Positions 7,710-30,409 of a stretch of DNA of 60,843 bases are shown piece by piece. Source of the stretch: Ardenticatenia bacterium (GTDB lineage: Bacteria; Chloroflexota; Anaerolineae; 4572-78; NAK82); assembly GCA_003130875.1 (NCBI GenBank), contig QEXY01000043.1, positions 83,141-143,983 of the forward strand, read 5' to 3'. How positions within the stretch are numbered: the first letter of the stretch is position 1; the number at the start of each line of letters is the position of its first letter. The notes beneath the pieces are model-generated. The model searched no databases. It saw only the letters and a list, made by a program, of their open reading frames with translations, and had not been told where the DNA came from. The translations under genes were made by a program, and so were the position numbers.

Positions 7710-9170
7710 TTAGTCTGCAGCTGTCCTGTGGATCAGCTGCGCGGTTGCTACACCCAGCCCCATCGTGACCCAGAACAGGGCGACCAGGTGGATAAAATTG
7801 ATGTTGAAGAAGAAATGATCAAAAATCCCACTGACCAGCGCTCCGGCCAGCGCTGCGATACAGGCCAGCAGATACCCCTCGCTTTCCCCACCGCGCGGCG
7901 CACGCCTTAGCGCCTGCAATGTCACAACAAAATAAACAAACACGACGAGCAGAAAGAGGAACAAGCCCACCAAACCTATCTGCTCAGCAATGAGCAGATA
8001 CAGGCTGGATACCCCCAGATAAAGGTCAATGTCGGGCGTGCCGGTGAAGCCTACTCCCATTAGGGGATAGCGGCTGATCAAGATGAGGGCATCTTTGTAC
8101 TCGCCAAAGCGCATCTGGGTAGCCAGGTCTTCTCCGCGCAGCCCCTCCCACAGGCGGGTGACGTATATCTGGGTGAACGGCAGGATCAGGAACAGGATGG
8201 CCAGTGCGACCAATAAGACCATGAGCTTGCGATAACGCAGGATACTCACCAGGGTAAGTGCCAGCACCAATCCCACCATGGAACCCCGAGAGAAGGTCAA
8301 CAGGAGGCAAAGCGCGCTCAGTCCAGCGCACGGCACCAGCCACAGACGAGACAGTACGGGCCGGGCAGCAAACAGCTGCACCACCGCTACGGCGGTCACG
8401 ATAACGAGCAACCCACCCAGCGCGTTGGGGTCGATCGAGGTGCCGATCGCGCGCATAGGCTGGCTGGGGTCGTCTTCCACATAACGCAGGATGCCCGGGC
8501 CGGATGGATAGTTAAATACGGCCAGCTTGGAAAGGATGTCCACCGTCCACGTTTCGGGCAACACATAGAATAACACGCCTAATGCACCGCCGAGGCCACC
8601 GGCGATGATGAGCGTAGCTATAACGCGGCGCAGCGCACCCAAGTCGCGCACTTGATACACCACGACAAAGAAAAGCAGAATAGACAGTAGAACCTCGACA
8701 AAACGGCGCAATACGGTCACACTAAGCGGTGCATGGGCCAAACCGGCCACGAAGGTGACCAGATTCCACAGGAGAAAAGCGAGGATAGGGATACCTAAAC
8801 TGGAAGGCTCAAAAGCGGTACGCGGTTCCCAAGCCCGCGTGCGCAGCAAAGAAGTGATAAACACAGCCAGCAATGCTAGGTCGATAAAGGTTGGGCGGAA
8901 GCCGATCTCCAGTGGCAGAGCCGCATAAGGCAAGAGGCAGATCAGCGCTAATAGCAGGGGTAATCCCCAACGGTCGGAGCGCAGCAAAATTGCTGCGACA
9001 CTCAGCACACCCAACAGTCCTAACGCCGGCAGGGCACCCAGCCCACCGATCAGCGCGCCCACGACGGCGCCAGCCAGCAATGCGACACCTAATGCGCTGC
9101 CGAGGGCAAGGCGCGGATCGCCGGAAGCAAGCCATGTGCGCAGCCGGTCTATGGTGGTATCGTGAATCAT
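7710..9170 (-). CDS. O-antigen ligase-like membrane protein (Wzy_C/WaaL superfamily)
   Basis: A 486-aa protein with about twelve hydrophobic segments. The Wzy_C-type region (about 250-400) contains LLTFSRGSMVGLVLAL near residue 300, matching the conserved SRG of O-antigen ligases and polymerases, followed by a large extracytoplasmic loop with RFGEYKDALILISRYPLMGVG. Such enzymes polymerise or transfer lipid-linked glycans on the outer face of the cytoplasmic membrane. It is the last gene of the minus-strand glycosyltransferase operon, 66 bp after the previous gene, with its own strong AAAGGGAGAG ribosome binding site. This supports a role for the cluster in building an exported glycan. Substrate unknown. 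Confidence 0.82.
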   Translation of the reverse strand: MIHDTTIDRLRTWLASGDPRLALGSALGVALLAGAVVGALIGGLGALPALGLLGVLSVAAILLRSDRWGLPLLLALICLLPYAALPLEIGFRPTFIDLALLAVFITSLLRTRAWEPRTAFEPSSLGIPILAFLLWNLVTFVAGLAHAPLSVTVLRRFVEVLLSILLFFVVVYQVRDLGALRRVIATLIIAGGLGGALGVLFYVLPETWTVDILSKLAVFNYPSGPGILRYVEDDPSQPMRAIGTSIDPNALGGLLVIVTAVAVVQLFAARPVLSRLWLVPCAGLSALCLLLTFSRGSMVGLVLALTLVSILRYRKLMVLLVALAILFLILPFTQIYVTRLWEGLRGEDLATQMRFGEYKDALILISRYPLMGVGFTGTPDIDLYLGVSSLYLLIAEQIGLVGLFLFLLVVFVYFVVTLQALRRAPRGGESEGYLLACIAALAGALVSGIFDHFFFNINFIHLVALFWVTMGLGVATAQLIHRTAAD

Positions 9171-9236
9171 GCTCTCCCTTTTACTCCGACACCGCGCTAC
9201 CGCAAAAGCGGAGCTTCACTCCTCAGCAGGTCAGCA

Positions 9237-11825
9237 TTATTGTAAATCCTCTAGACGAGGAGAAAGGCGACCATTTGACCGTTGTAATACTACTTCAATA
9301 TAGTCCTTCTCTTGATCCACCAGGTGCAATCGTCTCCCCGTGGATAAGTCGTACAAGCCGATACGCAGCCGATAGCGTCCGTCCTGCATTGAGGGCAGCG
9401 GACCAAGCGAATAGTGGTCGAGCACAACTTCGCCTGGGCTCCACAAAGAAGTCGGATAACGGCCCTGCTGGGGCATGTTGTCTTGTTGCGCCACCAGACT
9501 GCCTCGTTCATCCAGCAGGTGTGTAAAGACAGTATAATCGTGTGGGATGATATCGACCGCCTGCCAGTGTAGTACCACCCCAACCATATCTGCGTTTTTG
9601 CCGTACACGTCTAAGCCGCGTAACAAGATATTGTCCTCGAATCGGATGTTCAGCGCAAATGCCGGCGCGGGCGGAGGCCGCTTGCGCACTACTAGCTTGC
9701 CTAGCGTAATGCTGTCACTTCGTATGGCATTGCCATCAGCTGTCTGTACCATAAGGCGCTGTCCTGAGGCACGATGGTACAGCCCGACCTCGAACTGATA
9801 GACGCCCTCAGGGGCATCCTGTGGCAGCTGGAAGGCGTGGATCTCCTGAACGGTGAGGCCAGGTGACCAGAAATGGCTGTGGAGCAAGATGGAGCTCCCC
9901 AAGGACTGATTAACCTGAGCGATACGTTGCCCTGTCTGCAAGTTGAAGAGATGGATGAACAGATCATAGTCGCCATCAATCGAGCGCATACTTTTCCATT
10001 GCAACCGGAGGGAAAAGGATTGCCCCGGCTCGGCTTGCTCTGGTCGCACAAGAGCTCCTACTAAGAGCAAGTCATCAGCGAAATTGACCTTGATCGGCTG
10101 GACTGTCTCCGTCCTGTCGGGCAGGATCGGTGTGTTGGGATCGAGAGGATACACATCTGCTACAACTTCTCCACAGTTGTCGTTGAGAGAGAGCAGGGGC
10201 ATGTTGGTGCGCACCGCCTTAGCTAGAGTGATGGCTTGCGTCTGGTCCAGCTGAGGGAGGAGATGGGCGACGCCAGTGCCATCAACAAGCGGTTCAAGCA
10301 GCGTCCAAGCGGATGGAGTACTCCCATCGTGTGGTATAATACCCACTGCTCTTGTTCTGTCAGCGGTGTGAAAATAGTCGTGAGCGATCAAGGCAGTCGC
10401 TGCTTCGTAGGAGATGCTGTCCAACGTCGGGTAACGTGCTTGGAGCAAAAAGCGGGTAGGCGCATCCGTGTAGAAACGGTTGGGGAGCAGGACAAGCTGT
10501 CTGGGGCGTTTGGTCAAGTAATCGGCCAAGACATGCGCATGATGACATGATGGAGCAAAACTGTTCGCCCAGACGAAAAAGTAATCACGCACACCTGTTG
10601 CACCACCTATACAGAGGAGAGCCAGTGTCGGGAGCATCACACTCCACAGATGATGCGACTGCGCGTACCACCGGGGACGCCTGCTGAAGTGCTGGATACA
10701 AAAGCTGGTTGTCACTGCTAACCCAATCGCTGCGATGAGGCACAATGCTGGCCAGGCGACAATGCCCCGTAAGGGTGTGGTCACCGCTTCCCAATCCTGC
10801 CGTGAAAGCAACGGGGGGAGAAATCCCACCACCCACCAGCTCAGAAGCCACCAGCATGTCGAGCGACGAAAATGGCGCATACAGGCCAGCATGCCGACGA
10901 AGAGCCCCAGCCCGCTCAAGACATTCAAGCTCGGCCAGTGACCCACCCAATTACCCCCGCCAAACTGGATCATCAGCAAGCGGATGGCGTTCATTCCCAG
11001 TGCAAGTGGGAAGGCGCTGTCCATAGGCAGGCTGATAGCTGCTGCGCGACTGCTGAAGGCATGGGGATTGCGCACGAAGTAGAGCAGTAATGGGCCGCTG
11101 ACAAAAGCTGCCATACCCAGAAAAACCACCAGCCCACGTCCGATCCATCCGCGTTTGTTCGACCCCTGTGTCAGCCACACCCAAGCCAATAGGATAAACA
11201 GGGGAAGCAGGAGACGCGCCGCCGTGTAGGTGTAAAATGTTACGCCAAGCAAAAAACCTGCAGCGCTCCACCAGGGTAAGCTTGCACTGAAAGGGAGCGT
11301 CACGAGGCGGCGCGCGCGCCATAGGCACCATACACAGGCGAGCAGTACTGGTGGCAGCACAATGGCGCGCAGCGCCAGACGGCTGAAGTAGATGTGCCAG
11401 TAGCATACTGCCATACCGGTTGCAGCTAATAATCCGACGCGCACTGGCAGAAGTGCATCTCCTTGTGCCATCTCTTTAGGCGCCAGCTGGCGGCCAACGG
11501 CATACAAAAGGGGAATGGTCAACGTGCCTACCACCATCGAGCAGAAGCGCAAGGCAAAAACGGAAATGCCGAGAATCTGTAAGGTGATACCTTGAATGTA
11601 TAGGAACAATGTCTCCCGCCCGAAGTTGTTCTGCAGGAACGGGGTCAACCATCTCTCACGCACCAACCGCAGCGCATCCAGTCCATTGATGCTCTCATCC
11701 AGGCTGAGTTCCAAAGGCAGATCGTTCAGTCGGATGACCCGCAGTGCAAAGGTCACCCATACCAGAAACACCATGAACCAGAATGGCAGCCTACGGAGAC
11801 CCATCTCGTCAAACCAGCTCCGCAT
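9237..11825 (-). CDS. GT-C/GT39-like membrane glycosyltransferase with two beta-sandwich modules
   Basis: The N-terminal half is multi-pass. After the first helix comes LSLDESINGLDALRL with the acidic pair Asp43-Glu44, typical of lipid-phosphate-sugar-dependent GT-C enzymes (PMT/ArnT group). The last 300 residues are two extracytoplasmic beta-sandwich modules (about 560-705 and 715-855). The second has the full motif set found across this cluster: YTVFTHLLDERG, AQQDNMPQQGRYPTSLW, SPGEVV and GLYDLSTGRRL. The gene begins 9 bp after the preceding stop, so translation is probably coupled. The N-terminus closely parallels the gene at 20305-22911, so the two look like paralogues. Sugar donor and acceptor cannot be read from sequence. 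Confidence 0.82.
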   Translation of the reverse strand: MRSWFDEMGLRRLPFWFMVFLVWVTFALRVIRLNDLPLELSLDESINGLDALRLVRERWLTPFLQNNFGRETLFLYIQGITLQILGISVFALRFCSMVVGTLTIPLLYAVGRQLAPKEMAQGDALLPVRVGLLAATGMAVCYWHIYFSRLALRAIVLPPVLLACVWCLWRARRLVTLPFSASLPWWSAAGFLLGVTFYTYTAARLLLPLFILLAWVWLTQGSNKRGWIGRGLVVFLGMAAFVSGPLLLYFVRNPHAFSSRAAAISLPMDSAFPLALGMNAIRLLMIQFGGGNWVGHWPSLNVLSGLGLFVGMLACMRHFRRSTCWWLLSWWVVGFLPPLLSRQDWEAVTTPLRGIVAWPALCLIAAIGLAVTTSFCIQHFSRRPRWYAQSHHLWSVMLPTLALLCIGGATGVRDYFFVWANSFAPSCHHAHVLADYLTKRPRQLVLLPNRFYTDAPTRFLLQARYPTLDSISYEAATALIAHDYFHTADRTRAVGIIPHDGSTPSAWTLLEPLVDGTGVAHLLPQLDQTQAITLAKAVRTNMPLLSLNDNCGEVVADVYPLDPNTPILPDRTETVQPIKVNFADDLLLVGALVRPEQAEPGQSFSLRLQWKSMRSIDGDYDLFIHLFNLQTGQRIAQVNQSLGSSILLHSHFWSPGLTVQEIHAFQLPQDAPEGVYQFEVGLYHRASGQRLMVQTADGNAIRSDSITLGKLVVRKRPPPAPAFALNIRFEDNILLRGLDVYGKNADMVGVVLHWQAVDIIPHDYTVFTHLLDERGSLVAQQDNMPQQGRYPTSLWSPGEVVLDHYSLGPLPSMQDGRYRLRIGLYDLSTGRRLHLVDQEKDYIEVVLQRSNGRLSPRLEDLQ

Positions 11826-11834
11826 CTGACTTTA

Positions 11835-14800
11835 TCATTCTTCTTCCACCACGTAAGACGATTTGGTCGGGAGGTACAGCGTGCTCAAACGAATCGCATC
11901 CTGCAGTGATCCCGATGTGGCTGCGCCTACTGCAGCCAGTCGCTGGCCGGTAGTGATGTCGTACAACCCGGCCAGGATGTCATACTCACCAGGTGGCAGA
12001 TCAGCCGGCAGTGGCATTGTAACGACGTCGCGGATCACTTCGCCAACATCCCACAACGAGGCAGGATAAGCACCATTGGCTGGCGGACGGTCCATTTGGG
12101 TCACGATCTCAGAAGTCCCCGCCTTTGTCAGATGGACGAACGTAGTATAGTCAAGCGGCATTGGTGCATCGCAACGCCAGTACAGCACGATCTCTATCTC
12201 GGTCGGTCGTACAGAGAGATCATAGCCGATGAGGGTGACCAGCTCACCCAGACTGTCAGCACGTGGGTGCTCAGGGGCAAGTGTACCACTGACGATCACA
12301 TCTGGCGGTGCACCGCCCACCTTAATGGTGGTCAGGGTGACACTGTTGGCATTCAACGGATTGCCCGCTGCGTCAGTTCGCCACACAGGGTGAATTTGCC
12401 CTTGCATCACCTGGTAGAGCCCCACATCGAGATGGTAGACTCCGGGGGGTGCCGCTACATCCACCGGCAGCGCATACTCGTCCCGCACCACCTCACCGGC
12501 TGCCCATAAAGCCGTGCTGTAATAGTCTCGTGGGATGCGGTCGCGACCGCCCCATTGTCGTAGATCAGCCCCCAATAGGTGATTGAAAACGATATAGTGT
12601 CTCTGCACGTCTCGTTCGGCCCGCCAGTAAAGAGTGATAGGCAGCACACCGCCCGGTTGTACCTTGCGCTCCGGAAGGTCATAGCCCAGCAGGGTGATCT
12701 CGCCGCCGAAGAGAGCGTTCACCACGTGCTGCATAGGCGGCACGGCAAAGTCGCGTTGTCGCAGGCGCACTTCCAGCACTGGTTCGCTGATGAACGCTTG
12801 ATCCCCGCTGCGCAGTTGTACTCGATAGCGACCAGGTGACCAACGGGCACCGACCAGAAACGTGTAAACGTCATCCGTCTGGTACAACGCTGCCTGTTCG
12901 ATCCCGTCAGGCCCCAGCAAAGTCACAACGTATGGTTGTCCCTCCGATGGTTGCGCATGGAGGCTTATCTGAATAGTGGCACGATAGCGAAAAATGGGCA
13001 GAGGATCATCCGTCCGTCCTGATTGCCAGATGTCGAGTGTGCCACTGCGCCCATCGGGCAGCTGCCAGACATGCCTGCCCGTGACGATCGAGACGTTTGG
13101 CAGTGCCAGAGTGGTCAGACATTGGCCGCCATCCGGGGCTCGTTCCGGGTGATTGGTAGCGGTGACGGGCACTAGTCGTAGACATAAGCGGTACGCGCCT
13201 GCGCGCAGGCCAACCACTACCAGCCATGTCTCATCGCGTACCACATCGCCTGACTGCCAGGCACGCGTGGGATACCGCCCTCCTGCGGGATGTCCGAGCC
13301 AACGTGCGTAGATATGCCCATCCTCGCCGACTAAGAACAGATCGGTCAGGAAATCCTCGGACGAATCACCTGTGCTGCGCCAGGTGAGCGTCACTGGCAG
13401 AGCGCCAGACGCATTGAGTGGCTGCACCTCATAACCGAGCAGCTCGACTGCATCGTTCAACGGGAGATGCACCGGGTTAGTCACCTGCTCTGTGGCATCA
13501 GCAGTGGTGCGCACCGGGAGCGGTTCAGGAAAGGCGGATGTTATGACGCCATAGAAATTGAGCAACCCTATGCCCAATAATATACCAGAGACACCGAGCA
13601 ACGCTGGTTGGCGATTCGACGGTTTAAACCACGAGGCCAAACCGGTGGCGAGCAGCAGTCCAATGGATACTGTCGCAGGAAACAGGATGTGTCGTCCCTG
13701 TGCTGTCTCAATCACATTGCCAGTGAGAATGTAACGCAGCACGGGAAACGGCAGCAGCAGGAATACTTGGAGAACCAATAGGATGTATGGGTATGGGTGC
13801 TCAGCCGTTGTCGATACCCATGCTGTTTGCACCGTACGACTGCTGCCGCGGCACACTGCATTGCACAGCAGTCCGGCCAACGCCAGGACAGTCAGGCAAG
13901 CAACACCGCCGCACAAAGCGGTACCGAAGGGATGATCAAGCGGACTTCCGGGCAGCCAGAACGAAACAAACATCTGGCCCAACCATCTGGGCCAATCGAT
14001 TGATGGGCGGACCAATGCGGCGGATCCGGACAGCATTCCACCGCTGAGAAATGACGCCATCTGCTGCAAGCTGGCATCTGCGCGCGCGCCGCCTATAAAC
14101 GGCTTGATCAAGCCGATCAGCCATCCTAGCCGGCGCACCTCATTGAAGTGCCACAGTATAAAAACAAACCACCACGCCGCTGCGACGCTGAAGGTACCAG
14201 CGAACACGGCGAGGCGGCTCCAGGCTGCCTGCTTGTTCAATCTTCCACTTCGTATCGCTAGGATGAGCAATATGACCACCAACAGAGGGAACAATACTAC
14301 GCTGTACTTGGTGGTGACCGCCATTCCCAGGCAAATCCCGGCCATGGCATAAGGTTTTATCTCCATCGACCGTTGCCACGCGCGTGTCAGACACCAGGTG
14401 AAAAGAGCAGAGAGCAAGCCGAGCAGGTTGTCGTCGTTCACTGCGGCTGCAATAAAGGTGAATTGGGCACTTGCGGCAACCAGAGCAGCAGCACCAAGAG
14501 CGCACGATTTACATTCGGGCCGCGCTGCACGCGCAGCCAGATAGACCGTCACGACAGTGGCAGCACTGAACAGCAACGAGATCAGCCGTGCCAGGTGCCA
14601 TGCCAAGACAATACCTTGAAACGGGAACAACTCATCTTCGGTATGCACTATGGAGAACGGTGGTAATCCGTCAGCAATCAACAGGCGGCGCGGATCAGTG
14701 CTGTATTCTTTCAGGCGCGGCAATGTGGTGTAGTCCACCCAGCGCAATGCTATTCCGATCAATAGGTGGTAGAGCATCGGCGTATCGGACTTGTAGCCGG

Positions 14801-14975
14801 CCAATTCACGCTCTGAATAGCTGCGCGGCGGATGACCATGCTCGCTGATAAAGCGGATCAGGTGCATATGGGCGGTTTCATCCGGCGCTTCGCCCAATAG
14901 ATTGAACCAGCTGATGCTACCTGCTGTCACAATGAAAGCAACCAGCACAAAGACCAAAGCAGGAGGACGAGCCAT
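11835..14975 (-). CDS. DUF2142/GT39-like membrane protein with about four beta-sandwich modules
   Basis: A 1,046-aa protein. Its multi-pass N-terminal half carries GEAPDETAHMHLIRF (Asp32-Glu33) after the first helix and a long first extracytoplasmic loop, as in DUF2142 and GT39-like families. From about residue 490 onwards lie three clear beta-sandwich modules and one divergent one (the second). Motifs include ELLGYEVQPL, TLLGYDLPER, YTTFVHLTKAG, YPASLW and GLYDITTGQRL. It is closest in the window to the next upstream gene (14985-18293), with the same D-E context and module number, so a local duplication is likely. It lies 9 bp from each neighbour inside the operon. Predicted role: transfer of a sugar from a polyprenyl carrier on the outer membrane face, by family inference. 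Confidence 0.78.
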   Translation of the reverse strand: MARPPALVFVLVAFIVTAGSISWFNLLGEAPDETAHMHLIRFISEHGHPPRSYSERELAGYKSDTPMLYHLLIGIALRWVDYTTLPRLKEYSTDPRRLLIADGLPPFSIVHTEDELFPFQGIVLAWHLARLISLLFSAATVVTVYLAARAARPECKSCALGAAALVAASAQFTFIAAAVNDDNLLGLLSALFTWCLTRAWQRSMEIKPYAMAGICLGMAVTTKYSVVLFPLLVVILLILAIRSGRLNKQAAWSRLAVFAGTFSVAAAWWFVFILWHFNEVRRLGWLIGLIKPFIGGARADASLQQMASFLSGGMLSGSAALVRPSIDWPRWLGQMFVSFWLPGSPLDHPFGTALCGGVACLTVLALAGLLCNAVCRGSSRTVQTAWVSTTAEHPYPYILLVLQVFLLLPFPVLRYILTGNVIETAQGRHILFPATVSIGLLLATGLASWFKPSNRQPALLGVSGILLGIGLLNFYGVITSAFPEPLPVRTTADATEQVTNPVHLPLNDAVELLGYEVQPLNASGALPVTLTWRSTGDSSEDFLTDLFLVGEDGHIYARWLGHPAGGRYPTRAWQSGDVVRDETWLVVVGLRAGAYRLCLRLVPVTATNHPERAPDGGQCLTTLALPNVSIVTGRHVWQLPDGRSGTLDIWQSGRTDDPLPIFRYRATIQISLHAQPSEGQPYVVTLLGPDGIEQAALYQTDDVYTFLVGARWSPGRYRVQLRSGDQAFISEPVLEVRLRQRDFAVPPMQHVVNALFGGEITLLGYDLPERKVQPGGVLPITLYWRAERDVQRHYIVFNHLLGADLRQWGGRDRIPRDYYSTALWAAGEVVRDEYALPVDVAAPPGVYHLDVGLYQVMQGQIHPVWRTDAAGNPLNANSVTLTTIKVGGAPPDVIVSGTLAPEHPRADSLGELVTLIGYDLSVRPTEIEIVLYWRCDAPMPLDYTTFVHLTKAGTSEIVTQMDRPPANGAYPASLWDVGEVIRDVVTMPLPADLPPGEYDILAGLYDITTGQRLAAVGAATSGSLQDAIRLSTLYLPTKSSYVVEEE

Positions 14976-14984
14976 CCGAGATTC

Positions 14985-17900
14985 TCACTCCACCTTGAGC
15001 TCAGTCAAAAGGATGGCATCATCGGGCAAGCGAATCCCGTCGCTCATGACAACCGGTAGCCGCTGACCGGATGCCAGGAGATACATGCCCACCAGCAAAC
15101 GATATGGGCCCTGTGGCGCATCCGGTCGTACAATGATAAGATAGCGATCCACCACCGTCTGGCCGATTTCCCATTGTGAGGTCGGATAGCGCCCTTCTTG
15201 AGGTTGGTTGTCTTGTTGCCCCCATACTTGCCCATCCGGTCCGAGCAATTGGGTGAAGACCGTATAATCACCCTCAGGTGGTCGAAGAGCTTGCCAGTAA
15301 AGTGCCAGATGGAGCGTTTGACCCGGTGATAGGGGCACATCAGGCGAAGGTGACAGGTCGTAGCCGAGCAGCTGTATCTGATCACCCAAGGTAGCCTGGA
15401 GCGAGTAGGAAGGCATACCGTCCTCGGCCACATCCCTCACGCGTATTTGCCCCAGATAAAAGCGATCGGTGGGCTTCTGTAGAGAACCGTTTGTGACCGG
15501 CAACCAGCTGTAGGAGCTACCTCCACTACCATCTCGATATTCATAGAGGCCCAGCTGAATGGTGTATAGGCCAGGTGGAGTCTGCAAATATACAGGGAGC
15601 AGGTAGGTCTCTGAGACATATTCGCCCGGCGCCCACAGCACATTAGGATAGTGGCCTCCCAGCGACCAGTTCAGCTGACCTCCGACGCGTGCCATATGGT
15701 CAAGCAGATAGAACACAATCGTATAAGGCTGGCTCATCATACGATGGGAACGCCAATACGCTGTGATGGGTATGCTTTCCCCAGGCCAGCGCGGCGAATG
15801 GTCCAGCTCATAGTGCACCAGCTCGATACACGGCTCAGCGACGCCCGCACCGCAGCTGATAATAGTGGTTTCCCGGTGCGCTGCCAGATGGGCAGGAAAG
15901 TCAAAGTCACGCCAGCGCGTCGCAACTTGTATGAGCACGTTTGTTTCCACTCCTTCGGATGTTCGCAGCATGTATTCGCCCGGCCATACGGATGCGTCCA
16001 CAATGAAGCTGTGAGCGGTGATCTCCTCACCCCCTTGGAGTTGGCACACCCTTTGTGAAGCCACTGGCCACCATCTCCGCGCTGGGTTCTCTTGAACGGC
16101 CAGCCACACCGATGGGCCTCCTCCCGCGTTCGCACTTGCTTGTCGTACGAACACAGTAAATCCCTGGCGTAGCTGCTGCACTCGGAGTATTTCCTGGCGC
16201 AGCAGTCCTTGAGCTGTCCACACTTGTACGCGCGGTGGAACCATGTTCTCGCGTGCCGCTCTCTTTAAGCGGACATGGCCAAGTGCAACCGGCTCATGGC
16301 GCGGTGAGTTTGTATCTATCGCTGTAGCTGCCGAGTCCATCTGCAAAGGGAGGGGCTCCAGCTTCAACGTGTAGATCCCCTCCGGCAAGCAAGTCGATGT
16401 AGGTATGGTTATCTCATCGCGAATCCAATAGCCCGCTTCCCAGGCGCGCATAGGATAACGTCCGTCTAAAGGGTGAGCGTTGGTGCAAAGTGCCTCTCTC
16501 TGCCATGCGTCCTGCAAACAGAGGCGCACAAGGTAGTCGCGAGCTTGAGATGTACCAGCATACCAGTGCAGAGCGATTGGAATGCCTGTCCCTGCCTCAA
16601 AAGAAGGTATCTCTGCATCCGAAGATACAGGCAGATCATAGCCCAGAAATCTCAGACCCGAGGCGAAGGAAACCTCGAGACGGTGCCCAACAGGGGCTTC
16701 CTTTGGATTCAGTGAGCGAATGGGCAAATAGGGTAGATAGTTGGGGAGAATGATGCTTGGGAGTGTGACCACACTGAGCAACAGTAGCGCGGATGGCAGT
16801 GACAAGAGCCACAACGTGCTCCACGGGTGAACATGGGGGCTTCCTGCGATTCTCTGTCCACCATGACGAGACAGAAGAAGTGAGCGTGCTGAGTGTACGA
16901 GATTGCGGGCGACATTTGGCAGGACGTTCAGTCCATATATGACGAAAAAGGCGAGTGCGGTTAGGGCTGGATAAAGGTGTCTCCCTTGGGCCGTCTCGCG
17001 TGCCGGCCGTGATGCCTGACGCATGACCACAATACTCAGATAGAATAGTAGATGCAGAGCCAGCACGATGATATCCCAACGCCATGTAGAAGGATGCAAT
17101 GTCACAACACGTTTGGCACGCTGTCCTCTGCCAGCGATCATAAGTTTTACCAGCCATCCTCCCAGGCCAGCTGCGGCCAGCAGACACCAAACACCGAATG
17201 CCCAGTAAACCCACATCGGCGCGAAGATGTGCAACCATCCATAGGTAAGCCAGAAAGAACGGAAAAGCAGATCTGCCCAGTCACTCCAGTCGAATGTGCC
17301 GCCGAGCGTTGCACTGACAGGAGTCTCAAGCAAGTGGCTTAATCCCGTGGTCAGCACCGGGTCGCCGAACGGTGCGATCAGGCCACGCACCCAGCCCAAC
17401 TCTGCCACCTGATTAAAGTGGAGGAGGAGAAAAGCAAACCACCATCCGGCCGTCAGCGCGAAAGCGAGCATCATCCACGCCCAGTGACGCAGCCAGGTCA
17501 ACCATGCCTGACGTGCAGATGAAGAATTTGCCGCAGCACGCCAGGCTAACACGATGCACAACAATGTTGCCTCGGGCAGCAAGACCAAGCCATGGTATTT
17601 GGTAACCGCTGCTAGCCCTATTAACAAGCCCAAAAGCAGGAAGTCACCCCGCTTTTCGGAACCTTGCGCGACGCGCACCATTCCATATACCGCCCATGCC
17701 ACCAACGGCACAACCAGAGCATCATCGCTCACCACAGCGCTGTTGATGAGGAAACGCGGTAGGAAGGCCACGAACGCCGCCATCGCCGCAGCAAGATCGC
17801 GACGATGTGGGACGAGACGCAGTGCAGTGAGGTAGGCCGCTATGACCGTGATAGCCCCCAACGGTACTGAGACGAGGCGCGCTAGATGCCATGCCAGCGC

Positions 17901-18293
17901 CACACCGCGCCAGGGGAAAAGCTCATCCTCAGTATGAAAGACGCGATTGGCTTTGAAGCCATCGGTGGGGATCAGGCGCTTAGGATTCGCCTGCGTTTCC
18001 GGCAGTGCTAACAGGGGTGTGAGATCAACATGCTGGCTGAGCAATGCCACCAGGCCGTGATAGACAGGCGAGGCATCGCCTTTGGGTCCAATGGCGTTGC
18101 GTTCTGAAATCGTGAGCGGAGGACGCCCGTGCTCGGCGATAAAGCGCACCAGGGCGAAGTGGTCAGTTTCGTCAGCCGCCTCGCCGAGGGGCAATAGACA
18201 GCTGAAAGCTGTCGCCAAGCAGAGGAACAATCCCAGAATAACGATCAGTGGCCAATGACGGCGCAACACCCACAGTTCCTTCAGACCGCCCAT
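14985..18293 (-). CDS. DUF2142/GT39-like membrane protein with about four beta-sandwich modules (paralogue of 11835-14975)
   Basis: A 1,102-aa protein beginning MGGLKELWVL, with GEAADETDHFALVRF (Asp41-Glu42) directly after helix one. Further shared features with the neighbouring 1,046-aa protein are EHGRPP.T.SER, HTEDELFPW.G..LAWHLARL and CL.R.W-type loops. The C-terminal half has modules at roughly 550-690, 700-810 (divergent), 820-960 and 965-1102. The last is canonical, with YTVFTQLLGPDGQVWGQQDN and YPTSQW. The gene is the third from the end of the operon and starts 24 bp after the preceding stop. The expanded C-terminus is unusual for GT-C enzymes, where this region is normally one compact domain. 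Substrate unknown. Confidence 0.78.
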   Translation of the reverse strand: MGGLKELWVLRRHWPLIVILGLFLCLATAFSCLLPLGEAADETDHFALVRFIAEHGRPPLTISERNAIGPKGDASPVYHGLVALLSQHVDLTPLLALPETQANPKRLIPTDGFKANRVFHTEDELFPWRGVALAWHLARLVSVPLGAITVIAAYLTALRLVPHRRDLAAAMAAFVAFLPRFLINSAVVSDDALVVPLVAWAVYGMVRVAQGSEKRGDFLLLGLLIGLAAVTKYHGLVLLPEATLLCIVLAWRAAANSSSARQAWLTWLRHWAWMMLAFALTAGWWFAFLLLHFNQVAELGWVRGLIAPFGDPVLTTGLSHLLETPVSATLGGTFDWSDWADLLFRSFWLTYGWLHIFAPMWVYWAFGVWCLLAAAGLGGWLVKLMIAGRGQRAKRVVTLHPSTWRWDIIVLALHLLFYLSIVVMRQASRPARETAQGRHLYPALTALAFFVIYGLNVLPNVARNLVHSARSLLLSRHGGQRIAGSPHVHPWSTLWLLSLPSALLLLSVVTLPSIILPNYLPYLPIRSLNPKEAPVGHRLEVSFASGLRFLGYDLPVSSDAEIPSFEAGTGIPIALHWYAGTSQARDYLVRLCLQDAWQREALCTNAHPLDGRYPMRAWEAGYWIRDEITIPTSTCLPEGIYTLKLEPLPLQMDSAATAIDTNSPRHEPVALGHVRLKRAARENMVPPRVQVWTAQGLLRQEILRVQQLRQGFTVFVRQASANAGGGPSVWLAVQENPARRWWPVASQRVCQLQGGEEITAHSFIVDASVWPGEYMLRTSEGVETNVLIQVATRWRDFDFPAHLAAHRETTIISCGAGVAEPCIELVHYELDHSPRWPGESIPITAYWRSHRMMSQPYTIVFYLLDHMARVGGQLNWSLGGHYPNVLWAPGEYVSETYLLPVYLQTPPGLYTIQLGLYEYRDGSGGSSYSWLPVTNGSLQKPTDRFYLGQIRVRDVAEDGMPSYSLQATLGDQIQLLGYDLSPSPDVPLSPGQTLHLALYWQALRPPEGDYTVFTQLLGPDGQVWGQQDNQPQEGRYPTSQWEIGQTVVDRYLIIVRPDAPQGPYRLLVGMYLLASGQRLPVVMSDGIRLPDDAILLTELKVE

Positions 18294-22911: not shown

Positions 22912-25269
22912 CTAACGCCTCCGCAGCCAGGAAGACACCCCCATTCCCATCAGTGCCAATAGGGTCAGCACACTGATGGCCGCTCCTGCCATAAAGCTGA
23001 GCGGACGGAATACCATCTCCACCCGATGTTGGCCGGCCGGCACCACGACTCCCCGTAAAATGTAATCTACAGGCAGGATGTCCACCGGTTCTCCGTCTAG
23101 ATAAGCCTGCCAACCCGGATAGTAGATTTCGCTCACTACCAGTAACCCATCGACAGGGGTTCGCACGTCCAGGGTTATGCTTTCCGGGGTGCGTGCATAG
23201 ATCGAGACCTCGCCTAATTGTCCGTCTGCAGGGGGATGCAGCGCGGGCGCGCTGCCAGGCGGCAACAGTGCCACCTGCATCGGATCCAATGCCCTATCAT
23301 CCAGGCGGGCGAGCGTCTCCTCATCGGGAACTTCTTCCACGTGGTACACCAGCCAGGCGCGCGGTGTCGGGGATTCTAACCGGTGTACATAGGTGGTGTC
23401 TTTGCCGGCCGTTTCCTGGTAGATGATCTGCGATGGGGCATACAATTCTTGGCGCCAGGTGATCACATAGTGCACGTTGAGCAGCTGCCAAACGCGTTCC
23501 ATGCGCAAGGTGCGATACAGGGCATCATAACGCGTCAGGCGCAATGGACTGGCGCCCCAGGTGTCTTCCATCTCAAAAGGCACCCCATAATTCTCATAGA
23601 GGCGATACTCGTTGTACACGCGGAACACTGTGCCGGGTTGTGCGTCGGCGCGGATGGCCTCTACAACGGTTGGCGTCGCCGTCTGTGCCTCAGGTGGTGC
23701 TGGGTGCACGTTGATCTGCCAGTTAGCGGTGAAGAGGTCCAGCGCGACCAGCGCTCCCAGGCCGATCTCCCCCAGCACGACACATGAGGGCCGCGACGCA
23801 GTATATAAGTACAACAGCCCTGATCCCAGACCGAGCAAGATGACCAACCAGACGCTCTTGGCCAACAGGCCTCGAAACGGATGCGCGTCCTGCCAGCCGG
23901 TGGCATTGTGTCCGATGAAGAACATAAACACCAGGGCGATGCCACCCATAAGCAGCCAGCGCATCATAGCTGCAAACCAGGCACGGCTTGCCTGTTCGCG
24001 CTCACCGCATCGCGTATATTGGGCAAATCCGTAGCCGGCCAGCACCACAAGTGCCCAACTGAAGACAAACGCGAGCCGCTCCTGACCGCGAAAGATCCCA
24101 AATCCTGGGACAAACAGGTAGAACGGTATGTACAGGAAAGTTTCACCGCCGAAGGAGAGCAACAATGCTCCCAAGGCCATGACCCCCCAGAACACGGTCT
24201 CGCGCCGATGGGTATGGGCGCTCAGCGCACCCCATATGGCGAACAAAAGTGGCAGGATGCCCACGTAAAGCGGCGAGTAGTAGCTTACAGAGCCAGGAAG
24301 TATCATCTGAAGCACATCGTAAAGAGGGAAGCCGCCGGCCATCTTGTCATAAACGCCCGCTGCTCGCACCGACAGGCGCATGTATTCCCACGCTGGCAGC
24401 CAAGCCACCGCTGCTAGCCCCAGACCAGCGATCATGACAAACGCCCAGGCCGCGGCAACGCGCAACCTATCACGCCAGAGAGCGCGATTGCTGCCCCTAT
24501 AACGTGAGTAAGCCAGCGCAATAAAGGCCAGGTAGAACGTAAATGTATAGCCGACCAGCATCGCACTCTGAGGATGACCGGCTAACAAAGCGATTCCCCA
24601 TGCTGTGCCAGCCAGCAGGAGAGGAATCCGACGCGATCCATCGCGCAATGCCGGTAGACCACCAACACGGTCGACCAGAGCTACATCACACAGATACAGG
24701 ATGAGTGGCAACCATACATCGGTCTCGAGCACAGCCAGCTGCTGACTTGGGTAACCGGTCAGGTAGCCGCCGAAGGTGAAGACAAGCGCGCTCAGCAGAG
24801 CGGCATCACGCTGACCGGTCATTCGCCGCATGAGCAAATATGTGAAAATCCCCGCCAACCAGAAATGGACGATCGCTTCTAACTCCAGTGCAAAGAGGGG
24901 GAAGCGGGGCATACCCGCTAGCACCAGGGTGAGCAAGCTCAGCGGGTAAAGCACAGCGCTCTGCACATCGGCCCAAAAGGGAGCACCTGCATAGGTGTAA
25001 GGATTCCACAGGGGCAACCGTCCGGCAGCCAGCTCACGGGCCTCGAAAGTGGCGAAAGCCCAGAATTGTTGGGCGAAGTCACCCGGAGGGAAGCTGGCAC
25101 GGTCGGCCGGATTGGGAGTTAGAATGCGCCAGAAGAACAACAGCACTAGAACAGCCAACACAAACGTGCTGACACCATCACGCCATGACCAACATCCTTC
25201 ATCATTGTCGCCGTGGCGCGCAGGCGCTGTCCCTGTGACAGTCGGCGCTCTGCATGGGAAGTTCACCAT
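22912..25269 (-). CDS. YfhO family membrane protein
   Basis: A 785-aa multi-pass protein with the YfhO hallmarks after helix one: FPPGDFAQQFWAF, then ELAAGRLPLWNPYTYAGAPF and DVQSAVLYPLSLL. Later features are QERLAFVFSW and a C-terminal soluble region ending YPGWQAYLDGEPVDILPVDY, then a final helix. YfhO proteins are GT-C-related and contribute to glycosylation of cell-wall or teichoic-type polymers in other bacteria. Unlike its seven neighbours it lacks the beta-sandwich module of this cluster and has the family's own C-terminal domain. It overlaps the upstream gene by 7 bp and abuts the downstream gene. Function here is inferred from family and context. Confidence 0.85.
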   Translation of the reverse strand: MVNFPCRAPTVTGTAPARHGDNDEGCWSWRDGVSTFVLAVLVLLFFWRILTPNPADRASFPPGDFAQQFWAFATFEARELAAGRLPLWNPYTYAGAPFWADVQSAVLYPLSLLTLVLAGMPRFPLFALELEAIVHFWLAGIFTYLLMRRMTGQRDAALLSALVFTFGGYLTGYPSQQLAVLETDVWLPLILYLCDVALVDRVGGLPALRDGSRRIPLLLAGTAWGIALLAGHPQSAMLVGYTFTFYLAFIALAYSRYRGSNRALWRDRLRVAAAWAFVMIAGLGLAAVAWLPAWEYMRLSVRAAGVYDKMAGGFPLYDVLQMILPGSVSYYSPLYVGILPLLFAIWGALSAHTHRRETVFWGVMALGALLLSFGGETFLYIPFYLFVPGFGIFRGQERLAFVFSWALVVLAGYGFAQYTRCGEREQASRAWFAAMMRWLLMGGIALVFMFFIGHNATGWQDAHPFRGLLAKSVWLVILLGLGSGLLYLYTASRPSCVVLGEIGLGALVALDLFTANWQINVHPAPPEAQTATPTVVEAIRADAQPGTVFRVYNEYRLYENYGVPFEMEDTWGASPLRLTRYDALYRTLRMERVWQLLNVHYVITWRQELYAPSQIIYQETAGKDTTYVHRLESPTPRAWLVYHVEEVPDEETLARLDDRALDPMQVALLPPGSAPALHPPADGQLGEVSIYARTPESITLDVRTPVDGLLVVSEIYYPGWQAYLDGEPVDILPVDYILRGVVVPAGQHRVEMVFRPLSFMAGAAISVLTLLALMGMGVSSWLRRR

Positions 25270-28067
25270 ATGCGTACCATACCCAGATCGATGAAATCGC
25301 CGCCTGTGGAGGTCGGCAAGCGTTGGCCGCCGGAAGCGTGATACATACCCGTGATGAGGCGATACGGGCCAGGGGTCAGATCAGTGGGCAGGTACAAATG
25401 ATAGGGGTCGCTCAGGAACTCACCTTGCAGCCAGGTGCTGGTCGGTGCGAGTCCCGCGAGCGGCTGCATATCCTGCTGCGCTACCACACGCCAATCTGGA
25501 TTCAGCAATTGAACGAAGACAGTGTAATTCTCATCCACTTCAGCTAAAGCGTGCCAATGCAACGTCACATCCAGTGTATCACCCGGCCGCGCTTCTCTCT
25601 TTGCCACCTCGTACCCTACTAGCTGGAACACAGGTGGCTCGCCCAGCGCGACCTGGACAGCCTCGGCGATGCGCGGTGGTTCGAAGTGGCGTGGCCGTTG
25701 CTGCAGCGCGATGGGAGGCAAGGAGATACGGTCTCCAAGACGTTCCCCGCGCCACAGCAAATCGAGGTGTAATGTAGCGTGTAAGGCAGAGAGGCGTGGA
25801 CTGGTGGGCAGGCGATAGAGTGCACGGCGCACCTGTCCAGGCTGCCACCCCCTTGGGTCACCCACCAGCTCGGCGAGCGTCAATGTCGTTCCCATCTGCT
25901 CGGAGGCTTCGCCCTCTTCTAATGTCAATCGAACGGTGGCTTCGGTCAAGCGGGTCACCCTGGCATCTGGAGCGAGCTGCCAATATAACGATATCCAGAT
26001 ATCCTCACCTGGCTGCACCTGGCTTGGCAGCGCATAGCCCACCAAGATCAGATCACCCATCGCCCGGTAGACAGGATTGGACAGCTGAAGGGAGCGCGCC
26101 GGCACCACGATGGACGCTGGTGCCACATCGAGCGCGGCAACAGTCTGTGGCATACCCAACTGTTGGCCGCTCCCCGGTTCATACATTGCCAACTGTACCT
26201 GGTAATGTCCCGGCGGCGTGTCCGCAGGCAACCACAGCGCGCGCCGGTCGGCGATCGCTTGGCCAGGGCGCCAGATGGACGTTCCGCCTTCTGCAGCCAA
26301 GGGTGGCCAATCCGCCTGGGCATAGCGCTCGCCGAGGGAGCTGATCAATCGCATCGACACCTGGTAATTATACGCGAGTTGGGCGCTGGTCTGCCAGGTC
26401 AGCGCAAAAGGTGCTGTATCGCCGGCGGCTACCGGTTGCGCTGGGGTCGCTATGCGCAGCAACTCCAAGCGTTTACCCGGTGACTCCTCGAAAGCGATGT
26501 CGAGAGCTCGTTCCACCATCCCGAATGCTGTCTCTGTGACGTAGAGCGCCATCCGCTGACGCCCCAACCAGCTCTGCCAGGCGGGATAAGCATGCGATGC
26601 CAGCCATCCCTCCAGAACCTGGTCGATTGGCAGGCCATAAGGCATATACCAGATGCGGCGGTGTTGTGCTGCGATGTCAGCCAACCGCTGGAGTGCGCTT
26701 TCCGCCGACAAAGATGGGTTGTTGAACTCTGCATAGACGGGCGAGTGACCATCATAGTAGTAGTCAAAAACCATTTCGCTGCCGGCGCCCGTAATGAGGA
26801 TGGCATCTTGGGGTAAGGCATAGTCTTCGACCGTATGCGCGATGGTGCGCCAATCTGGCTTGGCATATGTCGGATCGAAATAGTGATGGAATAGTACCCA
26901 GCCGCTGATTCCGAGCAACGCCAAAAGGGGCAACGCTCCTGACAAGCTAGCGACGTGACCGCTCCATCTCAGTCGGGCGCGCACGAGAATGGTGCGCATA
27001 CCATCGCTTATGGCCAGCACTCCCATCGCAACGGCTAATAGATAACCAGCCTGCACGGGGATCAGGTAGCGTTCCAGATACACCGGCGTGCGCACTTCAC
27101 CATACAGCCAGGCGGCCAAGTTGGGCGCCAACGTGTAGGTCGCGATCAGTACGAACGTGTGACGGCCATGCCAGTTACCCCAACGACGTCGAGCAGCATA
27201 AGTGCAGCCGCAGAGGAACAACACGACGAATGCCAAGCTCAGCCAGACGGACAACGGCATCGGCACCAGCTCGCCCACGCTGTAGGCGAGCGCACTGCGC
27301 ACGTAGGTTTCCCATAACGTCGGCTGCGGAATCCAGTTGTAATAGTCCTTCAAGGCGCCCATGCCGAAGTAGAGCCACAGGCCGAACAGACCGAGGATGA
27401 TGAGTAACAGGACACCCCAGCGTAGATAAAGCTGTCGACGGACAAATGTTCCCCTGGGTTGGAGAAACCAGGTCACCAACAGGAAAAGGCCTTGCACACC
27501 GATCACGATCAAAGCATGGTAGTGGGTGAGCAAAGCCCATTCAGTGCCCAAGATGTAGAGCAGCTGCTGCCGCCATTTCCACTGTCCTTGCCATAGGGCC
27601 ACGAAGCCCCACATGCTCACCAACACGGCAGCAGTGAGCATCGTGTAGTTACGGGCATCCTGCGAGTGCCAGATCTGATAAGGCGACACTGCCATCAGCA
27701 ACGCTGCAACGAAGCCCAAACGCACATCGCCGAGCGCTTTTCCGAAGCGCATCGTCAATGGCACACTCAGCGTGCCGCAGATGACGGAGAGGAAACGCAT
27801 GGGATATTCACCGTTACCCACCAACGCGCTCCAGTATAAGGTCAGAAAGTGGTATAACGGCGGTACTACGCGGGTGGTCTGCAGAGTATGCCACAATTGC
27901 GTCGGCGTGAGAGCGGCATAGTGAAGTGTCCAGCCCTCATCGATCCAGTAGCTCTGCGCGTCGAGACGATAAACCCGCAGAGCAAAGGCCAGCAATGTGA
28001 CGATCGAGGTTGCGATGGTTATCGCAAGGCGCTGCGAGCAAAGTGCACGCCTCATCGCACACTTCAT
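25263..28067 (-). CDS. GT39 family glycosyltransferase with three beta-sandwich modules
   Basis: A 934-aa protein with YRLDAQSYWIDEGWTLHYA (Asp43-Glu44) after the first helix and VVPPLYHFLTLYWSALVGNG in the next loop, the standard PMT_2-like arrangement. MAVSPYQIWHSQDARNYTM further matches GT39-like enzymes (compare ISPYQIYFAQDARSYTL in the 647-aa neighbour). The catalytic half ends near residue 390. The C-terminal part carries modules at about 520-655, 656-790 (divergent) and 792-934, the last with YTVFVQLLNPDWRVVAQQDM. The start overlaps the stop of the preceding gene by 4 bp (ATGA). Confidence 0.85.
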   Translation of the reverse strand: MKCAMRRALCSQRLAITIATSIVTLLAFALRVYRLDAQSYWIDEGWTLHYAALTPTQLWHTLQTTRVVPPLYHFLTLYWSALVGNGEYPMRFLSVICGTLSVPLTMRFGKALGDVRLGFVAALLMAVSPYQIWHSQDARNYTMLTAAVLVSMWGFVALWQGQWKWRQQLLYILGTEWALLTHYHALIVIGVQGLFLLVTWFLQPRGTFVRRQLYLRWGVLLLIILGLFGLWLYFGMGALKDYYNWIPQPTLWETYVRSALAYSVGELVPMPLSVWLSLAFVVLFLCGCTYAARRRWGNWHGRHTFVLIATYTLAPNLAAWLYGEVRTPVYLERYLIPVQAGYLLAVAMGVLAISDGMRTILVRARLRWSGHVASLSGALPLLALLGISGWVLFHHYFDPTYAKPDWRTIAHTVEDYALPQDAILITGAGSEMVFDYYYDGHSPVYAEFNNPSLSAESALQRLADIAAQHRRIWYMPYGLPIDQVLEGWLASHAYPAWQSWLGRQRMALYVTETAFGMVERALDIAFEESPGKRLELLRIATPAQPVAAGDTAPFALTWQTSAQLAYNYQVSMRLISSLGERYAQADWPPLAAEGGTSIWRPGQAIADRRALWLPADTPPGHYQVQLAMYEPGSGQQLGMPQTVAALDVAPASIVVPARSLQLSNPVYRAMGDLILVGYALPSQVQPGEDIWISLYWQLAPDARVTRLTEATVRLTLEEGEASEQMGTTLTLAELVGDPRGWQPGQVRRALYRLPTSPRLSALHATLHLDLLWRGERLGDRISLPPIALQQRPRHFEPPRIAEAVQVALGEPPVFQLVGYEVAKREARPGDTLDVTLHWHALAEVDENYTVFVQLLNPDWRVVAQQDMQPLAGLAPTSTWLQGEFLSDPYHLYLPTDLTPGPYRLITGMYHASGGQRLPTSTGGDFIDLGMVRIW

Positions 28068-30409
28068 GGGGAAACTACCTCAACTGTGACGTTTCCCAGC
28101 ACAAGCACATTCTCATTCGATCCAGCGAGCTTTAATCGCTGCCCGCTGATCGGATCGACCATACCAACGATGAACCGGTAGCTACCCGCCGCATCGGGTG
28201 GCAGGATCAGCGCCCGGCGGTCGTGCACTTCTTCGCCTATTTTCCATGTACGTGTAGGGGCGTATCCCCCCACAGGTGGCCCATCGTGCTGCGCTATGGG
28301 CCGCCCCTCTTTATCGAGCAACTGAGTGAAGATGTTGTAATCGGCATCCGGAGCGGCGATCGCGCGCCAGCGCATTTCGATCGGCATCGCGCCACCCGCG
28401 GCAATGGAGACCGGGACATGCACTGCTTCCAGCCGGAACATGTCTCCTAGGGTAGCTTGCACGGTGATGGTCAACGGTGGAGTGGGAGTGACATAGCGCA
28501 CCAGACGTGCGTCTTCGATCCATTCGTCGCTCGCCTTGAATGCGTGATGCGCCAACCACCACTCCACTGGATTGTCCGCTGCCGCCGGTGGACATCCCAC
28601 CGTCACCAGCCACACATTGCGCCCTGCCATGGCGTGCTCCAGCAAAGGCATAGCGGTCTCAGCCAGCGGTGTGGTCTGTCGGGCGAAACCGATCAGCGGG
28701 ATGCGCGCCTTGAAACGGTTCATCGGCAGATGATAGTGATAGGGTGCCACGGTGATGATGGACTCACGGGCACCAACCTGTGCCGCAGCACGTTCCAGTG
28801 CCACGAGATACGCTGGCGTTTGAGTTTCGCCGAACTGTCGGTCTGTCCCATAATAGCGTCCCAACAACATCAGTGGGATGACCAGCGTAGCGATCCCAGC
28901 TACGACCGAGCTGCCGCGCATCCAACGTCCGAACCAGACACTCAGCGTGTACCCCAATGTAATGACCAACAGCAGGAGACCCAGTCCCAGCGCAAACCAG
29001 TCTAGTCCCCCGGGCTGCCACCACGCTACATCCGAGTTTTCCAGCGACCACATACGCAGCTGGCCCAACGGCTGCGCATAGTGGAAATCCACCAGGGCCG
29101 CGGTGCGTTCTAGAAAAAACTCTCCACCGAACTTGGCTTGGAGCGCACTCAAGTATACCCATGGATTGATCGCCACACCCAGCAGCTGTACGGCCAGCGA
29201 AGCGCATCCGAATATGCCCAGGAGCACGATCATAATCAGGTCGCGCCGGGATGCACGCTCAACCAGCGGCGCTAGGCAAACGCTTAATAAAGGCACGAGT
29301 GGCACCAGGAAGCGCGATCCCCAGCTCAGTCCCTCTCCGGAGCTCCAGGTCGCGAAGAGCAGCAAAGTGATCCCACTGATGCCTATCACCAATAACACGG
29401 CATCTCGACGCCGTCGCCATAGCGCGATCATGCCGGGCAAGCTGAGAAGCAGCACCGGCGAATAGACAAAGAGTCCGCGCAACGGGCTCAACAACAGTTT
29501 ATAAAGACCTGTCAGGATCTCCGGGGAAAAGATGGTGAGATCGTAGCCGGTCTGTAGGGGATTGCCGCTGCGCAGCGCGTTGTAGAGCAGCAACAGCAGC
29601 AGCGGTGGCAATATGCCTGCCAGGAAGCACAGCAATGGAAGCAAACAGCAGAACAGTCGGCCTGTATCGCGCTCAGCGTTCTGTGCAGCAGCCGGATCCC
29701 GTTGGACGCTTATTCCCAACAGGTATAGCACCCAGACAGGCACCACGAACAGGTTGTTGGCACGTGTGGCCACCGCCAGCCCGGCCAGGAAGCCGGCCAG
29801 TCCGGCCGACCAACGCTCTGCGCTGCCGCGCACCCGAAGCACCAGAAAGGTGGCGCCGAGCAGCAGCAACCCGCTCAGCGGCTCGCTGAAGAGATACTTG
29901 CTGTACACCCAGGCGATAGTGGCAATGCCATAGATACCTGCCGTAGCCAGTGCTGCGAAACGGTCGAACCCAAGCCCCCGAACCGTCCCATATATCAGAC
30001 CAGCTGTCGCTGCGGTCACCAGGGCATTGGTCAGAGAGGCAGCTTGGAGCATCCCGATGCCGGGTATGAGCAAGCCCAGGCCATACAGAGGGGCCATGAC
30101 CAGAGAGAACATAGGGCCCTTTTTAGAGTACACGTGTCCGTCAACACCGAAGAACCCTTGTGCCTCGCGTTGCGTTGTCGTCCATTGGGTCCAGGCGACC
30201 TGGTCTGTATGAGGTGAGCCGAACTTGACCAAGCTCTCCGTCACGGCAAACATCGAGACCTCATCTACTGAGTGGAATCCGCCGCGATAGGAGAGCAAAT
30301 ATAGGGAGAAAAGACAGAGACTGAGACTGATGGCAAGGACAAAGTCACGACCGGCAAGGCTTTCCGGCCGCCCATTTGCCGGAGGTGCATCAGAACAATA
30401 TACAATCAT
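28064..30409 (-). CDS. GT-C-like membrane glycosyltransferase, first gene of the operon
   Basis: A 781-aa protein with GGFHSVDEVSMFAVTESL (Asp49-Glu50), then YSKKGPMFSLVMAPLYGLG, resembling glycosyltransferase-like proteins that show long first loops. About ten hydrophobic segments reach residue 500. One beta-sandwich module (about 640-780) has YNIFTQLLDKEGRPIAQHDG and GMVDPISGQRL. ATG 30409 was chosen because a strong promoter ends 8 nt upstream and no Shine-Dalgarno is present, so the message is probably leaderless. It overlaps the second gene by 4 bp. As the first gene it defines the operon 30409 to 7710. Confidence 0.83.
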   Translation of the reverse strand: MIVYCSDAPPANGRPESLAGRDFVLAISLSLCLFSLYLLSYRGGFHSVDEVSMFAVTESLVKFGSPHTDQVAWTQWTTTQREAQGFFGVDGHVYSKKGPMFSLVMAPLYGLGLLIPGIGMLQAASLTNALVTAATAGLIYGTVRGLGFDRFAALATAGIYGIATIAWVYSKYLFSEPLSGLLLLGATFLVLRVRGSAERWSAGLAGFLAGLAVATRANNLFVVPVWVLYLLGISVQRDPAAAQNAERDTGRLFCCLLPLLCFLAGILPPLLLLLLYNALRSGNPLQTGYDLTIFSPEILTGLYKLLLSPLRGLFVYSPVLLLSLPGMIALWRRRRDAVLLVIGISGITLLLFATWSSGEGLSWGSRFLVPLVPLLSVCLAPLVERASRRDLIMIVLLGIFGCASLAVQLLGVAINPWVYLSALQAKFGGEFFLERTAALVDFHYAQPLGQLRMWSLENSDVAWWQPGGLDWFALGLGLLLLVITLGYTLSVWFGRWMRGSSVVAGIATLVIPLMLLGRYYGTDRQFGETQTPAYLVALERAAAQVGARESIITVAPYHYHLPMNRFKARIPLIGFARQTTPLAETAMPLLEHAMAGRNVWLVTVGCPPAAADNPVEWWLAHHAFKASDEWIEDARLVRYVTPTPPLTITVQATLGDMFRLEAVHVPVSIAAGGAMPIEMRWRAIAAPDADYNIFTQLLDKEGRPIAQHDGPPVGGYAPTRTWKIGEEVHDRRALILPPDAAGSYRFIVGMVDPISGQRLKLAGSNENVLVLGNVTVEVVSP

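Follow-up and report, generated by a model that had tools for sequence, protein, structure and literature searches.

A 60,843-nucleotide stretch of DNA from an Ardenticatenia bacterium of the phylum Chloroflexota (contig QEXY01000043.1, positions 83,141 to 143,983 of the forward strand; the whole stretch is referred to as the window) contains a row of genes for GT-C-like membrane proteins, most of which carry one or more copies of a C-terminal beta-sandwich module. The locus raises the question of what these proteins assemble and what the module does for them. The genes form a real, conserved operon, and the modules belong to a large, uncatalogued domain family. The best reading of the operon, held here with moderate confidence, is extracytoplasmic glycan assembly in which the modules of the GT-C proteins hold the acceptor.

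Organization of the operon

The genome is a draft of 3.49 Mb in 195 contigs. Nine genes occupy positions 7710-30409 on the minus strand of the window, and no overlap or gap between neighbours exceeds 66 bases; their order of transcription is g9, g8, g7 (YfhO), g6, g5, g4, g3, g2 and g1 (Wzy_C). The tightly packed genes g9 to g1 form one operon, which comprises eight genes at 9237-30409 and a ninth, the Wzy_C gene, at 7710-9170. The features are as follows, with protein lengths in amino acids (aa).

30418-30446, minus: strong promoter-like site TTGACA-17-TATGAT (11/12) just before the g9 start codon; consensus match only
28064-30409, minus: g9, first gene; 781-aa GT-C-like membrane protein, LA_3751/3752-like, one C-terminal module
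25263-28067, minus: g8; 934-aa PMT_2 GT-C protein, three modules; 4-base overlap with g9
22912-25269, minus: g7; 785-aa YfhO-family GT-C protein (PF09586), no module match
20305-22911, minus: g6; 868-aa GT-C protein, two modules
18318-20261, minus: g5; 647-aa PMT_2 GT-C protein, one module
14985-18293, minus: g4; 1102-aa GT-C protein, three modules and one unrelated beta domain
11835-14975, minus: g3; 1046-aa PMT_2 GT-C protein, paralogue of g4, three modules and one unrelated beta domain
9237-11825, minus: g2; 862-aa GT-C protein, two modules
7710-9170, minus: g1, last gene; 486-aa membrane protein of the Wzy_C family (PF04932)
7477-7496, minus: terminator-like stem-loop after g1; consensus match only

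In the products of seven of the eight genes at 9237-30409, a GT-C-like membrane half precedes a C-terminal module of ~140 aa; the YfhO gene is the one without it. A first-pass annotation of the window had described the genes in this way, and the profile search agrees. The YfhO family (PF09586) is matched by g7 with 83.1 bits, against a Pfam cut-off of 28.5. In a search of the genome the PMT_2 (PF13231) cut-off is passed by g2, g3, g4, g5, g6 and g8, by g6 only together with its neighbouring stretch and by g2 as a borderline case (26.1, and 25.8 with hmmscan); g9 stays below it at 24.9. For g4, hmmscan alone gives no Pfam family, and the genome search gives the same stretch 41.3 bits, over the PMT_2 cut-off, a mismatch that is probably a filter effect. 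The loop acids E38 and D41, and also D123-E124, are invariant in 16 aligned proteins of the g4/g3 type, in a comparison aimed at acids of the first extracytoplasmic loop, and g2, g5, g6, g8 and g9 have DE or D at the matching place. Comparison with solved structures gives no sequence match for g5. A fold search with a model of the whole of g4 was uninformative on the GT-C core, since strings of beta domains (complement, transglutaminase) dominated the result.

Copies of the module

A module profile was built from seven obvious copies and then iterated. It finds 15 copies in the seven genes, with E-values from 1e-55 to 2e-26, which is far beyond chance. The motifs quoted in the first-pass annotation are present in the sequence. 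The copies and the two spacer domains are located as follows.

28079-28486, minus: module g9-1
26100-26537, minus: module g8-1
25701-26105, minus: module g8-2, the most divergent copy
25266-25682, minus: module g8-3
20773-21222, minus: module g6-1
20311-20772, minus: module g6-2
18321-18749, minus: module g5-1
16263-16709, minus: module g4-1
15876-16250, minus: g4 spacer beta domain, not a module
15435-15872, minus: module g4-2
14988-15425, minus: module g4-3; predicted structure pLDDT 97.3
13083-13505, minus: module g3-1
12750-13082, minus: g3 spacer beta domain, not a module
12315-12746, minus: module g3-2
11868-12308, minus: module g3-3
9684-10118, minus: module g2-1
9279-9677, minus: module g2-2

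In coordinate order the eight genes have 2, 3, 3, 1, 2, 0, 3 and 1 modules, so that each module gene carries one to three. The earlier counts (2, 4, 4, 1, 2, 0, 3, 1) hold for six genes; the 1046- and 1102-aa proteins have three modules each, because the supposed fourth copy (12750-13082 in g3, 15876-16250 in g4) fails the profile with a best E-value of 0.3 or worse. These spacers are shorter beta domains and lack the W, YPTxxW and GExVxD signature. Across 111 diverse module copies W44, P81 and W85 are nearly invariant. The module family has no Pfam or NCBIfam model, and no such model extends over the C-terminal half of any of the seven module proteins.

Fold and kinship of the module

Module g4-3 is predicted by AlphaFold2 to be a beta-sandwich with a mean predicted local distance difference test score (pLDDT) of 97.3. 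The best fold matches in the PDB are NPC2/ML domains, the carbohydrate-binding domain of Wzt and CARDB. Wzt carbohydrate-binding domains account for 9 of the top 30 matches, one of them solved with 3-O-methyl-mannose, and match with a Foldseek probability of 1.00 but TM-scores of 0.51-0.58; ML and CARDB domains match too. In a profile comparison the module and Wzt_C score 33.3 (probability 71%) over about 80 columns, compared with 21.4 for NBR1-Ig, 16.2 for CARDB, 15.6 for reversed Wzt_C and 23.9 for the best of 100 block shuffles. The profile comparison thereby rules out a CARDB or NBR1-type immunoglobulin (Ig) identity of the module. Wzt_C is also the Pfam family matched by most module copies, if weakly (9/111, best E-value 2e-4), with several other beta sandwiches as weaker matches behind it. 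From the fold and profile comparisons we conclude that the module is distantly related to Wzt_C (PF14524) without belonging to that family. The best sequence match among solved structures, RbmA at an E-value of 0.014, was treated as chance. The Wzt domain recognises the O antigen by its methylated non-reducing end (PMC9445017). The modules are probably sugar-binding domains that hold the growing chain.

The fold matches bear on a different function as well. The module could bind the polyprenyl phosphate carrier or another lipid and present donor or acceptor to the active site, in the manner of NPC2/ML-domain proteins: NPC2 is the top fold match (E-value 2.0e-4), many ML-domain structures come after it, and the ML domain is weakly matched by 4 of the 111 copies. 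However, the TM-scores for NPC2 are 0.42-0.47 for most chains and 0.52 for one, below those of most Wzt chains, the ML sequence match is weaker than that to Wzt_C (best E-value 0.027 versus 2e-4), and GT-C enzymes bind the carrier in their membrane half. We regard lipid binding as quite improbable.

A structural role is a more serious possibility, although still an unlikely one. The modules would then be Ig-like strings that space the enzymes, join several GT-C proteins in a complex or fix them to the S-layer or the cell wall, with the substrate glycan left unbound. The generic Ig-like fold, the tandem strings and the weak Pfam matches to MG2, plectin and other beta sandwiches would all suit such docking, and the most conserved residues, W44, P81 and W85, could be residues of the fold. 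The profile match nevertheless singles out Wzt_C, which scores higher than two other Ig-like families and the shuffles. Each module position moreover keeps its own identity across genera, as would be expected for different ligands, although different docking partners would fit this too.

Distribution and history of the module

The genome contains 76 module copies in 50 frames, 31 of which have one copy, 12 two and 7 three. Outside the operon there are 61 copies in 43 frames, and these 43 other frames rule out an expansion unique to the operon. The module genes of the operon average 2.14 copies, somewhat above the 1.42 of those elsewhere in the genome (p = 0.025). Further clusters occur on contigs C64 (11 copies in 7 frames), C119 (7 copies in 3 frames), C85 and C7 of the same assembly (G000). 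Several loci of the genome are thus rich in modules, this one among them, and the module is general to the GT-C proteins of the lineage. According to the first-pass annotation, the expansion would not be special if the module occurred singly in most GT39 proteins. This largely applies: the module is present on 32 of the 50 PMT_2 frames of the genome and occurs singly in 31 of the 50 module frames, so that the operon, although rich in modules, is an ordinary locus of a family spread through the lineage.

All 30 relatives searched have the module, with 6 to 130 copies each, and it is found at E ≤ 1e-8 in 98 of 301 sampled genomes of the phylum. A scan of 84,980 species was limited to its best 80 matches, and all 74 loci retained bear labels of Chloroflexota lineages; a scan of viruses found no relative. 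In 139 of 142 complete module frames, from loci of many Chloroflexota, at least five membrane segments precede the module and none follows it, and in the model of g4 the beta domains likewise come after the last membrane helix.

A tree of 63 modules pairs each of the 11 window modules for which the same-genus genome has a counterpart with that counterpart, by gene and position and with high support, and places the modules of one protein in different clades. The three modules of g8 and the one of g9 pair with their counterparts in a more distant genome (locus L069), with support of 98/74 for g9. Between genomes the modules are 64-78% identical and the membrane halves 63-76%, i.e. they are about equally conserved. 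The modules are old, position-specific domains and not recently mobile; the tree rules out a mobile module at genus and family level, and the word 'mobile' in the first-pass annotation finds no support, since each of the 15 window modules groups with its positional counterpart in the orthologous gene of another genome.

Conservation of the operon and its neighbourhoods

A same-genus genome (loci L105/L031) keeps g7-g6-g5-g4-g3-g2-g1 in exactly this order, with 64-82% identity. The more distant genome represented by L069 has the order g9-g8-g7-g5-(g9-like)-g6-g3-g1.

The wider association was assessed in 38 neighbourhoods of the Wzy_C gene picked regardless of modules; two loci detected by way of the module, L069 and L061, are not among them. 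A module gene stands immediately upstream of the Wzy_C gene in 15/38 neighbourhoods; fewer than one such immediate neighbour is expected by chance, an estimate that assumes about 50 module frames per 3.5-Mb genome. The same-strand run of the Wzy_C gene contains a module gene in 19/38 cases and a YfhO gene in 9/38. At L110 and L119 the run includes genes for GT2, GT4, phosphomannomutase and GDP-mannose dehydratase, and that of L110 also has a polyprenyl synthetase gene; at L122 and L137, GT2 and GT4 genes lie just before the module gene. In eight genomes of one family of the class (f29) neither the module nor the Wzy_C gene is present, a joint absence that may reflect a single loss.

The Wzy_C protein

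The last gene of the operon, g1, matches PF04932 with 51 bits, against a Pfam cut-off of 31.7, and keeps the conserved R, P, G.G and G..G positions of the family. Of 199 genomes of the class, 177 have a match to this gene, almost always as a single copy. Comparison of g1 with solved structures gave no sequence match. Characterised members of the family have an essential histidine in the last large loop (H338 in WaaL, H349 in PglL, H323 in MagA; PMC3643930, PMC3485256), and some Klebsiella pneumoniae Wzy proteins have Asp at this position. The histidine is absent in all 43 aligned g1 orthologues (43/43); g1 reads GVS in place of HN, as do most of the 43 sequences. The ligase label is therefore not safe for g1, although in view of the Asp in the K. 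pneumoniae proteins it may yet be active. A conserved PDID loop and a C-terminal DH..N..H motif of the g1 family are candidates, judged from the alignment, for the role of the missing histidine.

In NCBIfam g1 has sub-threshold matches only, to IctB and, as the second, to TIGR03097, the exosortase-associated O-glycosylation ligase. The latter match would suit a role in protein glycosylation, in which the enzymes would glycosylate exported S-layer or other surface proteins, the modules would recognise either the protein itself or the first sugars on it, with the Wzy_C protein as a protein-glycan ligase. The name PMT_2, too, derives from protein mannosyltransferases. There is, however, no acceptor protein or sorting gene within the operon, and the module GT-C and Wzy_C genes of L110 and L119 sit with GT2/GT4 and nucleotide-sugar genes, as in loci for lipid-linked glycans. 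Protein glycosylation appears improbable on these grounds.

Proposed mode of action

In the model that we favour, extracytoplasmic glycan assembly, the operon would encode an assembly line for a lipid-linked glycan, working at the outer side of the cytoplasmic membrane; donor, acceptor, sugar binding, step order and product are all inferred. At the acidic loop that follows its first helix, each GT-C enzyme would accept a sugar from a polyprenyl-phosphate donor and then attach this sugar to the chain. The string of one to three Wzt_C-like modules would project outward and hold the right acceptor intermediate, probably gripping it near its non-reducing end. In this way the modules would give each enzyme an acceptor preference and raise the local concentration of acceptor. 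The YfhO enzyme may add a further residue, and the Wzy_C protein would then polymerise the chain or transfer it.

Precedents for acceptor binding by such modules exist. In a GT136 GT-C enzyme the C-terminal Ig-like carbohydrate-binding module (CBM) binds the acceptor O antigen, also as an isolated domain, although the enzyme could do without it in the conditions that were tested; in EmbC and AftD, too, the CBMs are in contact with the acceptors (PMC11127046).

Several observations weigh against glycan assembly by acceptor-holding modules. The TM-scores to Wzt are only 0.51-0.58, with similar E-values for the lipid-binding domains NPC2/Der p 2, and a representative window module matches no Pfam family at E-values up to 1. 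No donor synthase or flippase is encoded within the operon (GtrA and Wzx homologues are present elsewhere in the genome, outside it). The essential histidine is missing from g1 and its orthologues, and half of the sampled Wzy_C neighbourhoods have no nearby module gene. The first-pass annotation had likewise proposed that the GT-C enzymes and a ligase-type gene build an exported glycan which the module may bind. In view of the kinship with Wzt_C and the conservation of the operon, this is still the best-supported reading; its term 'O-antigen-ligase-type' should be used with reserve, given the absence of the histidine.

A more far-reaching version can be put forward only tentatively, and we think it rather unlikely as a whole: a Chloroflexota-wide assembly line in which tandem Wzt_C-derived modules, each with its own specificity, would read successive intermediates for dozens of GT-C enzymes, and a Wzy_C protein without the histidine would finish the chain by means of a different catalytic residue.

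Comparison with known systems

One of the closest known systems is the GT136 enzyme ORF12 of Citrobacter youngae O1 (PMC11127046), in which a GT-C membrane half likewise leads into an Ig-like beta domain at the C terminus, outside the membrane; the likeness of its CBM to the module is one of architecture. There, a single enzyme has one such domain, whereas here one to three occur on seven enzymes of one operon. ORF12 belongs to a three-component system with a donor synthase and a flippase, neither of which is in the operon here. The mycobacterial proteins EmbA/B/C and AftD are similar in that one extracytoplasmic glycan is the work of several GT-C enzymes, which have carbohydrate-binding modules at their C termini, but they are phylogenetically distant, g5 matches no solved structure in sequence, and here the module is Wzt_C-like and the partners are YfhO and Wzy_C proteins.

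The Wzt_C domain of O-antigen ABC exporters (PF14524; PDB entries 6o14, 8dky and 2r5o) is a beta-sandwich, as is predicted for the module, and has profile similarity to it. In the exporters it is attached to a cytoplasmic ABC ATPase, whereas here it is C-terminal to a GT-C membrane half, and the conserved YPTxxW stretch belongs to the module. With the Wzy_C family (WaaL, PglL, Wzy), g1 shares the PF04932 domain and the conserved R, P, G.G and G..G; the g1 orthologues differ in lacking the essential histidine. The arrangement is that of a GT-C enzyme plus carbohydrate-binding module, already known in kind, and not a new kind of system.

A search of a literature library found no paper on these enzymes, and to our knowledge the surface glycans of Chloroflexota have received little attention. 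That a domain present in up to 130 copies per genome lacks a Pfam or NCBIfam model is a real gap in annotation. If the modules bind acceptors, each pair of module and enzyme tests how extracytoplasmic glycosyltransferases choose their substrates, a point left open by the GT136 enzyme, whose CBM binds yet is dispensable (PMC11127046). A class-conserved Wzy_C protein without the canonical histidine would, in the same way, test the role of that residue.

Other features of the window and contig

Two more GT-C proteins, of the TIGR03663 (Agl23-like) kind and without the module, are encoded on the plus strand at 53450-55348 and 55388-58765; the latter protein has NHL beta-propeller repeats, related to ScyF, at its end. 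A Wzx-type flippase domain (G000:C181:4099-4917, locus L226) lies in an unusually long frame of 1479 aa on the same contig, outside the window. At 3555-7241, plus strand, a pair consisting of a GAF histidine kinase and a LuxR-type response regulator converges on the end of the operon. A single protein encoded at 38224-40101, plus strand, joins an FHA domain, a bacterial Ig domain and an NBR1-type Ig domain, the last of which occurs in 13 of 13 genomes searched.

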